Below, piece by piece: positions 12,228 through 16,178 of a stretch of 47,197 nt of DNA (position 1 is its first letter; each line of letters begins with the position of its first letter). Origin of the DNA: Planctomycetota bacterium (lineage in GTDB: Bacteria; Planctomycetota; Planctomycetia; Gemmatales; Gemmataceae). The stretch lies in the NCBI GenBank assembly GCA_016873095.1, contig VGYC01000035.1, positions 1 to 47,197 of the forward strand, in the 5' to 3' direction. Position numbers and translations under genes: made by a program. Below the pieces are notes generated by a model, which had not been told where the DNA came from, did no database searches, and saw only the letters and a list, made by a program, of their open reading frames with translations.

Positions 12228-14942
12228 TCACAGCACGCCGCGTCCGAAGTTCGCCGCGTGTCCGCCCGGCACGGGCCGGCCGGCACGCAACAGCCGCCAG
12301 CGCTCGCGCACCTGCGCCGGCTCGTAAGGACGGTAGATGAAGTCAGCGCGCAGCGACCTTGCTCCCGCGCGAGCCAGTGTGCCGAGATGCGGCGACAGGG
12401 AGAACGGCCCCTGGTTGAGCACGATCGTGCGGCAATGATAGTCGAGCGCGGTCACGCGCTCGCCGTGGCTCGACACCATCTCCATGCTCTCGAAGCGGCA
12501 GTTCGCCTTGCCGGGGCAGCCGCCGATCAGGTTGGCATACGCGCACGACTCGGCCAGGAATAACGGCGTGTCCTGATGGACGATGACGACGGCTCGTGGA
12601 CCGAAGTCAGCCAGCAACGGCTTCATGTTCGCCAGCCCATCCTCCGGCGATAGCGCGAAACGCTCAACGCCCATCTTGATGAGCTGCAAGGCGGCCAGGC
12701 GGTTGAGAACGTACAGCGACCAGTCGGCGGAAAGCGATAGGCCGTCGAGCGGTGCGAGAAAGCTCCACGCTGACAGGTTGCCCGCTTCCCAGCGCGTCCA
12801 GCCGGCCGATCGCAGCCGCGCGATCTTGTGCACGATCCCCGCTTCTTCCCACTTCCGCGTCAACGGCGGCAGGGCGAGACGGATCCGCTCGCGACCGAAC
12901 GTTCGGCCCAGCTCTTCCAGCCGGTCGTGGAGGATAGTCGGATGATCGCGCGCGATATCGACAATGACTTCCTCGACGCCGTCCCAGTCGCTCGTCTCGA
13001 ATGCATCCACATAGCCGACGCGATCCACCTTGATGGACCATCTCGTAGGGCAAGCGGCCTCGCTTGCCCGGCCGGGGGCCTGGCCTTGCATAGTGGACAT
13101 CGGTCGCACAAGCGAGGCCGCTTGTGCTACGGCGGCGCCTCGCGCCTGGCGCAGCGATTCTTCCAGACCGGCTGTCAGCTCGCGGCGTAGCTGGTTGATG
13201 CGTGATACGGGCACGAACCGGCCGTCCGGGTTGTGGAGTTCGCACGACTCCAGCGACAGCGCGGTGTCGCCCAGCTTGTCGAAGGCGCCGCGAAACGCTG
13301 TGTCCATGGCAACGGCATCGCGGGCAGGACCGAATGGACCGGGCAGCGACCGGCGACATTCGATTCCGGCCTCGCGCTCATGACGCGGCGCGATCCGGCC
13401 AACGACGACCAGTTCCGCCTCCGTCAGCGTTCCCCGGATATCCAGACCGCGGCGCGGGCGAAACTGTCCCGCCTTCGGCCGCTGATAGCGATACTTGCGC
13501 TTTACTTCCTGCGACGAAGAGCAATAGACGACAGCCCCCGCCGGGATAGGCGGATGCTCGATCGGCAAGCCGACCTCGACCCATGACGCGGCCGGCGCGG
13601 CGAAGACTTCTTTCCCCGGCGCGCCCTGGCTCTTGCCCGCCAGCCAGAGATGATCCACCGCGAAGCCGAACGGCTTGCCGAGCACCGGCAGGTCGATCTG
13701 CAGGCCGTCATGGCGTTCCAGGGCACGGCGCGTGAAGAAGCGCAGCCGGGCCCGGCGTGTGCCTTCGTCCCGTACTCCTTCGACTTCACCAATCGGCGTG
13801 CCGCGATGTCCGACTGTGTCGCGGTCGGCCACCTCCTTGTCGCGATGCGATTGCAGGAACAGCCGCGTCCACGGGCGGCTGAAAACCGATTGCAGCTCGG
13901 CCTCGCGCTCCGTGCGCTCCGCTGCATCGAGAGTGCCGTCAAGCAGCCGGCGATAGTAATCGGTGGTGGTGGCCACGTAGAGCGGGCTCTTCTTCCGCCC
14001 CTCGATCTTGAAGCACGACACGCCGGCCGAGCGCAGCGACGGCAGGAAATCGGCCAGCGCCAGGTCCTTCATCGAAAAGGGAAAGCCACGCGACGGATCG
14101 CGTTTCACCGGGCTGCCGTCGCGCAGCGTCGCCGGCGCGCCCACGACATCGTGCGAATCGCGGCAGGAGTAGGCGCACTTGCCGCGGTTGCCGCTGCGGC
14201 CCAGCGTCTGCGACGAGTACAGGCACAGCCCGCTGTACGAGTAGCACAGGGCGCCGTGGATGAACACTTCCGTCTCGACGCCGGCCGTGCGCGTGATGTC
14301 GTCCACTTCCTCGAAGGTCAGCTCGCGAGCCAGGACCACGCGCGCGAAGCCGAGCTGCCGCAGCGCTTCCGCGCCGGCGCGGTTGTGTACGGCGAGCTGC
14401 GTGCTGGCGTGCAGTTCCAGCTGTGGAAAATGCTTGCGAACAAGATGATAGACGCTGAGGTCCTGGATGATGAGCGCATCCACGCCGATGTCGGCAGCGG
14501 CGGCCACGGCCTCGATCAGCTCGGCCACCTCATCCTGGCGAATGAGCGTGTTGATCGTGACGAAGACGCGGCGGCGCGGCTGCAAGCTGTGCGCGAACGC
14601 CGTCACCTCCGCCAGCTCGTCGAGCGTGAAGTTCTCCGCCTCGGCCCGGGCCGAGAACTTCTTGAGGCCCAGGTAGATGGCATCGGCCCCGTAGTGAAAG
14701 GCGGCGAACGCCGCCTCCGGCCCGCCGGCGGGGGCAAGCAGTTCCACAGGCCGCGTCGCGTTACCGAGATCGAGCGCGATCTCCGGCACAAGCGCCGACG
14801 GATCGGCGGCGCCATACTCGCCCTGCGGCAACACCGGCTCCGGCGCTTCGAGAGCCGTTGCCGGCGACCACTCATGCCACGCGGGCGCGGCCACTGGCTC
14901 GGAGCGCGGCAGCAACGGTAAATTGACGAGACCTTCTTTCAT
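12228..14942 (-). CDS. U32 family peptidase (DUF3656-containing)
   Basis: A 904-residue protein of the U32 family, whose characterised members act in tRNA or rRNA hydroxylation or as collagenase-like proteases. After a variable 65-residue N-terminus come ELLAPAGGPEAAFAAFHYGAD, split here as ELLAPAGGP and YGADAIYLGL, and the family signature HGALCYSYSGLCLYSS with downstream cysteines in GKCAYSCRD (Fe-S or metal ligand candidates). A second half with further cysteines (ANLIGGCPGKANCRF) follows. Between the halves a palindromic element (13045-13130) is translated in frame, giving an Ala/Ser/Arg-rich linker. Its start codon lies 22 bases from that of endonuclease V on the other strand. Confidence 0.85.
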   Translation of the reverse strand: MKEGLVNLPLLPRSEPVAAPAWHEWSPATALEAPEPVLPQGEYGAADPSALVPEIALDLGNATRPVELLAPAGGPEAAFAAFHYGADAIYLGLKKFSARAEAENFTLDELAEVTAFAHSLQPRRRVFVTINTLIRQDEVAELIEAVAAAADIGVDALIIQDLSVYHLVRKHFPQLELHASTQLAVHNRAGAEALRQLGFARVVLARELTFEEVDDITRTAGVETEVFIHGALCYSYSGLCLYSSQTLGRSGNRGKCAYSCRDSHDVVGAPATLRDGSPVKRDPSRGFPFSMKDLALADFLPSLRSAGVSCFKIEGRKKSPLYVATTTDYYRRLLDGTLDAAERTEREAELQSVFSRPWTRLFLQSHRDKEVADRDTVGHRGTPIGEVEGVRDEGTRRARLRFFTRRALERHDGLQIDLPVLGKPFGFAVDHLWLAGKSQGAPGKEVFAAPAASWVEVGLPIEHPPIPAGAVVYCSSSQEVKRKYRYQRPKAGQFRPRRGLDIRGTLTEAELVVVGRIAPRHEREAGIECRRSLPGPFGPARDAVAMDTAFRGAFDKLGDTALSLESCELHNPDGRFVPVSRINQLRRELTAGLEESLRQARGAAVAQAASLVRPMSTMQGQAPGRASEAACPTRWSIKVDRVGYVDAFETSDWDGVEEVIVDIARDHPTILHDRLEELGRTFGRERIRLALPPLTRKWEEAGIVHKIARLRSAGWTRWEAGNLSAWSFLAPLDGLSLSADWSLYVLNRLAALQLIKMGVERFALSPEDGLANMKPLLADFGPRAVVIVHQDTPLFLAESCAYANLIGGCPGKANCRFESMEMVSSHGERVTALDYHCRTIVLNQGPFSLSPHLGTLARAGARSLRADFIYRPYEPAQVRERWRLLRAGRPVPGGHAANFGRGVL
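13045..13130. repeat. palindromic element inside the U32 peptidase gene
   Basis: Arms at 13045-13066 and 13109-13130 are reverse complements at 20 of 22 positions, separated by 42 bases. The element stays in frame in the peptidase gene and encodes a stretch starting AQAASLVRP and ending ASEAACPTR. It lies between the conserved halves of the protein. This resembles in principle the in-frame palindromes known from Rickettsia, but the sequence is different. Confidence 0.7.
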
Positions 14943-15795: not shown

Positions 15796-16178
15796 TCTCA
15801 ATAATGCACTGAAGGAGGAGACTCGCCCCGCGACAGATCAGTTCGGCGAGCTGCGCACGGACCACCAGACGTGCCAGGACATCCTGCGCCGGCACTGATC
15901 GGCGTGCCGGAGTTGCAATGGGTGTCGCACATCGAGCACTTTTGCCAGACCGGTCATGTGTGCACGGTTACACTGGAGGAGTTGGGCGCGGCGTGAGTGA
16001 TCCCTGATGAAATGACGATCCGCCGCTTTCGTCGCACATGGCTTTCGAGTATAATCGCCATCAATCGAAGCTGCGCCGCCAACGTAGCACGGAATTCCGA
16101 TGCCGTGCGATATGCACGCAGGGAAACAGAATTCCGTGCTACATTCGCCGTGCAGCCCTCATTAGGAAGCGTTTCGCC
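15796..16178. other. intergenic stretch with possible gene remnants
   Basis: No intact gene seen. On the plus strand an open segment ending at a TGA (15994-15996) reads PELQWVSHIEHFCQTG followed by a short acidic tail, which looks like the C-terminus of a lost protein I cannot identify. A consensus TATAAT lies at 16050-16055 with a weak TTTCGT 17 bases upstream, a candidate promoter for the following DUF4058/DMP19 genes. A palindrome at 16084-16142 follows it. Confidence 0.35.
16084..16142. repeat. 14-bp inverted repeat upstream of DUF4058 pseudogene
   Basis: Arms gtagcacggaattc (16084-16097) and gaattccgtgctac (16129-16142) are perfect reverse complements around 31 bases. It lies between a TATAAT box and the start codon at 16179, so it would form in the 5' leader if that promoter is used. 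It appears to be another family of dispersed palindromes. Confidence 0.55.

Follow-up and report, generated by a model that had tools for sequence, protein, structure and literature searches.

REPs of the GTAG super-family, together with BIMEs and REPINs, are described as hairpins of 20-40 nt with a GTAG foot, a short loop such as GCCT and stems of 8-9 bp, which occur in many copies and as head-to-head dimers 20-100 bp apart, with compensatory changes in their stems (PMC3733652; PMC3116915). Such repeats, which usually lie between genes, are also found within them. According to the survey by Di Nocera (2013; PMC3733652), translated intragenic REPs are present in many bacteria, over half of them as dimers or groups, and code for 20-30 aa suggested to lie in linkers or loops. 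GTAG REPs are reported there from the Planctomycetes (Rhodopirellula baltica), and many intragenic REPs from the verrucomicrobium Opitutus terrae, a member of a related phylum, with in-frame dimers of the same kind in Thauera, Xanthomonas, Stenotrophomonas and others. In Rickettsia, the palindromic repeats RPE-1, RPE-4 and RPE-6 are translated in frame in conserved genes; RPE-4 and RPE-6 are classed as CGTC-type REPs and RPE-1 as a longer palindrome (PMC3733652). A further arrangement, the REPtron, is the RAYT-linked REP, in which REP copies flank a RAYT gene.

Here we describe an in-frame palindromic element from a genome of the Gemmataceae, located within a 47,197-nt stretch of DNA analysed at its full length (the window). 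Its hairpin features are those of GTAG REPs and BIMEs; with CAAGCG in the stem and a loop of GCCT or GCT it is placed in the GTAG super-family, where it may equal one of the 24 published families (PMC3733652). Like the intragenic REPs of Opitutus terrae and other bacteria, it is an in-frame dimer at a presumed linker, but here orthologues reveal a loss of native linker, the host belongs to the Gemmataceae and the target is a U32/DUF3656 gene. A sequence-only reading of this DNA had likened the element to the in-frame palindromes of Rickettsia and held that a planctomycete example would be a separate case. The likeness stands insofar as a mobile-type repeat appears to be translated within a gene, but the case is not a separate one, as intragenic REPs are recorded in many bacteria (PMC3733652), and an identity with RPE-4 or RPE-6 was rejected because the foot is GTAG, not CGTC. 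Read from its open frame, the U32 element clearly adds one more example to a phenomenon already described and does not represent a new type of element.

A GTAG REP dimer within a U32-family gene

The element at 13045-13130 is an 86-bp head-to-head REP dimer whose GTAG feet face out, made up of two inverted hairpins of 25 nt each, GTAGGGCAAGCGGCCTCGCTTGCCC on the plus strand and GTAGCACAAGCGGCCTCGCTTGTGC on the minus strand (Table 1). Its inverted-repeat arms of 22 nt (13045-13066 and 13109-13130) stand 42 nt apart, just as the sequence-only reading had reported, and pair at 20 of 22 positions, 16 of them contiguous; a repeat search lengthens the arms to 31 nt at 84%. Each arm is a hairpin by itself, also by the covariance model R1, and the stems of 8-9 bp and loop of 4 nt lie within the REP definition (stem 5-13 bp, loop 2-20 nt). 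Hairpin b differs from hairpin a at two stem pairs, each changed on both sides. GTAG stands at one stem foot in both hairpins and in most copies in this genome (G000), G029 and G014, and in the hairpin subtype of the U32 gene its final G can form a pair at the hairpin's 3' end. The element folds strongly, with z = -5.35 for RNA (-53.4 kcal/mol) and z = -6.97 for DNA, and in neither case did any of 200 shuffles equal it. An Rfam scan of the window returned no match.

Table 1. Coordinates of the REP dimer, its parts and its host gene in the window
Feature	Position	Strand	Evidence or detail
REP hairpin a	13045..13069	plus	GTA foot, 9-bp stem GGGCAAGCG / CGCTTGCCC, loop GCCT; model R1 44.3 bits
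REP hairpin b, GTAGCACAAGCGGCCTCGCTTGTGC	13106..13130	minus	covariance model R1 42.7 bits
Spacer between REP a and REP b, 36 nt	13070..13105	.	sequence
REP dimer, predicted to be translated, codons 605-633, VAQAASLVRPMSTMQGQAPGRASEAACPT	13045..13130	minus	ORF, orthologue alignment, AlphaFold2
Host gene, U32-family protein, 904 aa	12228..14942	minus	Pfam and orthologues

The host protein carries Peptidase_U32 at residues 141-368 (Pfam PF01136, E 3.5e-72) and DUF3656 at residues 490-596 (PF12392, E 2.9e-10), a domain combination seen in RNA hydroxylases such as RlhA. Its NCBIfam match to TrhP scores under the cut-off of that family, and the name "peptidase U32" may mislead for this 904-aa protein. 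The ORF runs uninterrupted through the element, bearing out the earlier observation that the palindrome does not break the frame. On the coding strand, the dimer starts at a codon boundary (13130 is base 1 of codon 605) and finishes inside codon 633, and translation of the segment is suggested by this open frame. The resulting peptide, VAQAASLVRPMSTMQGQAPGRASEAACPT, had been called rich in Ala, Ser and Arg; it is indeed rich in Ala (7 of 29 residues) and holds 3 Ser and 3 Pro, but with only 2 Arg it is not Arg-rich.

A repeat family in this genome and its relatives

The sequence-only reading had proposed a search for the same palindrome at intergenic sites of the genome, and intergenic-looking copies were found. 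BLAST of the region against its own genome recovered additional copies of the arms, and the 25-mer of hairpin a recurs, identical, on contig C125. A 16-nt core, at no more than one mismatch, has 8 matches in this genome and 44 in the relative G029, against none in either for the reversed control, and a second subtype, GTAGGACAAGCGGCTCGCTTGTCC, has 21 matches at no more than three mismatches against none for its control. The covariance model R1, built from 17 copies, gives at least 35 matches in this genome at E<=1, more than 20 of them with E <0.01, on many contigs; as 150 of 12,904 preliminary candidates were scored, these genome counts are lower bounds. The hairpin family is thus present at some 20 or more further loci of the genome. 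In G029 there are tens of copies, nearly all with GTAG directly 5' of the stem. Stem covariation is in excess as well, with 14 cells of two-sided change versus 5.1 in shuffled data (reached in 0 of 500 shuffles) and 0-4 in slid controls, a signal carried by two pairs.

Head-to-head dimers, under a spacer criterion of 20-100 bp, occur on contigs C35, C1, C13, C99/C23, C128 and C175 and in G029. In G014, related REPs with a TCCT loop are joined tail-to-tail, with CTACGTAG at the junction (L141-L144), as opposed to head-to-head in the window's genome. Sorted by open frame, 27 loci comprise 6 in convincing genes and others that look intergenic, in an unannotated genome at whose G+C spurious long frames are common. 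Five loci (L032, L200, L203, L204 and L205) were not counted as intragenic despite their long open frames: their translations appear non-coding, and a Pfam scan, which covered L032, L200 and L204, found no match for L032, one frame of L200 or L204.

Two other repeats of the window were seen. One, at 16084-16142, is again a GTAG REP dimer but belongs to another family (GTAGCACGGAATTCCG); it forms a 40-nt imperfect inverted repeat and is overlapped solely by a 151-aa ORF of doubtful reality. This family has 14 genome copies at no more than one mismatch, versus none for the control. The other, at 194-218 and 242-266, is a perfect inverted repeat whose arms of 25 nt (AGGGCGAGGCTCCTGCCGAGCCGTG) are separated by 23 nt; it has no GTAG foot, and its core, GGCTCGGCAGGAGCC, is absent from every other fetched locus.

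Loss of native linker at the REP dimer

Orthologues of the U32/DUF3656 protein in the Gemmataceae, collected from two sources, are about 60-69% identical to it; the closest is merely 69% identical, and no same-genus genome is among those retrieved. Over the linker, the alignment holds 35 orthologue rows with about 26 distinct linkers, and the palindrome is found in none of these. The sequence-only reading would have been refuted had all relatives carried the same segment with no palindrome; the orthologous linkers are without it, and its interpretation as ancestral protein sequence is rejected.

How much does the dimer add to the protein? The linker, counted from RINQLRR up to but excluding WSIKV, is hypervariable among all relatives and measures 45-64 aa in them and 54 aa here, where 29 residues are REP-coded and 25 are native, a shortfall of at least 20 against every relative. 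Because of this deficit of native residues, the REP segment is a substitution for native linker, and the earlier statement that the palindrome adds a stretch does not hold: the net length is normal and the native linker is largely gone. Inserted cleanly and with no other change, the dimer would have shifted the frame, since 86 is 2 modulo 3.

In an AlphaFold2 model run with 22 sequences (mean pLDDT 73.7), a helix at 579-609 extends into the first five REP-coded residues (605-609), residues 617-629 form a loop of low confidence (pLDDT<50) between well-predicted domains, and a strand begins at 634, straight after the REP-coded residues. The REP-coded part of the protein is thus a predicted domain joint, a position at which it would therefore be tolerated.

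In-frame REP dimers are also present in a glycosyltransferase (C125), an LA_3751-like membrane protein (C13) and a Ser/Thr kinase (C175), in the last at the linker joining the kinase domain and a membrane helix. The glycosyltransferase has a paralogue and a homologue in G003 with a native segment of like length at the same position. The loop of the membrane protein is 63 aa long, with 31 REP-coded residues, against 45-60 aa in relatives, counting reliably aligned relatives and ignoring one row with a misread frame (L238). The kinase lacks about 15 residues of native linker. Native sequence is thus missing beside the REP in four of four comparable genes, including the U32 gene, in comparisons at 50-69% identity. 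Two kinase-nSTAND1 paralogues, C99 (2408-2469) and C23 (1009-1070), have a common in-frame REP dimer coding DKQPACQPDEPTSKAAC; because both carry the same dimer, the insertion is older than the duplication or was copied along with it.

Candidate RAYT genes

The genome has five Y1_Tnp genes, of which the strongest two, on C12 and C379, are IS200-type by NCBIfam. For the NCBIfam family REP_Tyr_transpos, with a cut-off of 80, only the gene on C242 scores high enough (81.9); another Y1_Tnp gene scores below the cut-off, and a fifth is the one on C4. No significant R1 match lies near any of the five, within flanks of about 1.5 kb or up to the contig end. In contrast to REPtrons, no cognate RAYT flanked by the REP family of the U32 gene was found in this assembly of 548 contigs, 95.5% complete, which is weak evidence of absence.

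Both IS200-type genes have other hairpins in their vicinity. Near the one on C12 (L007, position 2056) stands another GTAG hairpin, GTAG CCCACGGC GCCA GCCGTGGG. The contig of the other (C379, L008, 1-1081) carries short GC hairpins, GCCCCGT-TT-ACGGGGC, with frames that repeatedly read SPVNGA; these are probably another repeat family around that transposase.

Discussion

Taken at a probability of roughly 0.86, our reading is that a GTAG REP dimer landed in the linker of the U32/DUF3656 gene and came to be read in frame, by a combination of REP gain and local loss. GTAG REP dimers are non-autonomous, and RAYT (REP-associated tyrosine) transposases would mobilise them in the form of single-stranded hairpins. 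One such dimer would have entered the interdomain linker, and the copy that survived would be one in frame and without stop codons. We infer that the surviving allele combines the gained REP with a loss of local sequence, leaving a linker of normal length, because 86 bp cannot be divided into whole codons and at least 20 native linker residues are gone; the insertion may have come before or after the deletion. The REP peptide might then act as a neutral flexible joint that prolongs the helix on the DUF3656 side and then forms a disordered loop leading to the C-terminal domain.

In a variant compatible with this explanation, the linker would have been replaced in a single event, either because recombination or template switching involved another REP locus or through microhomology-mediated repair. 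The absence of native linker residues from all four comparable genes would suit such an event, as would the frame-restoring change that is needed regardless for a dimer whose length three does not divide, but identities of 50-69% leave ample time for separate deletions and the two changes are undated; we consider a single step unlikely, though worth keeping in view.

Could the dimer instead be retained for a role within the gene? Its mRNA hairpin, at about -53 kcal/mol, might slow ribosomes and so aid co-translational folding, or it might serve as a site for gyrase/IHF or for mRNA processing. The hairpin is strong relative to shuffled sequences, the element sits at a domain border, and the same family occupies linkers of several more genes, all of which would suit such a role. 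Yet the orthologues do without a palindrome at this point, linker and loop sites are equally expected if just the tolerated insertions survive, and the host proteins are unrelated, which speaks against a specific role, so that we judge retention for function improbable. That the palindrome is a chance inverted repeat, arisen by the ordinary evolution of an Ala-rich linker and not from a mobile repeat, has in its favour the hypervariability of this linker in relatives but can be dismissed in view of the genome-wide family, with its exact 25-mer elsewhere, its GTAG foot and its excess of copies over controls, and in view of folding z-scores of -5 to -7.

Among these results, the in-frame REP dimer of the U32 gene adds to what is already described, and the sole part that may be novel is the apparent, repeated disappearance of native linker beside the REP, which we did not find in the consulted portions of PMC3733652. 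One could go further and propose that REP dimers of the Gemmataceae replace native interdomain linkers, as a recurrent source of new linkers, through a route of integration or repair that deletes the target; we offer this as a tentative idea and would sooner bet against it. With translated REP dimers predicted for six or more genes within a single Gemmataceae genome, and orthologues to compare in four, the loss of native linker at the REP bears on how REPs become fixed in genes and on the turnover of flexible linkers.
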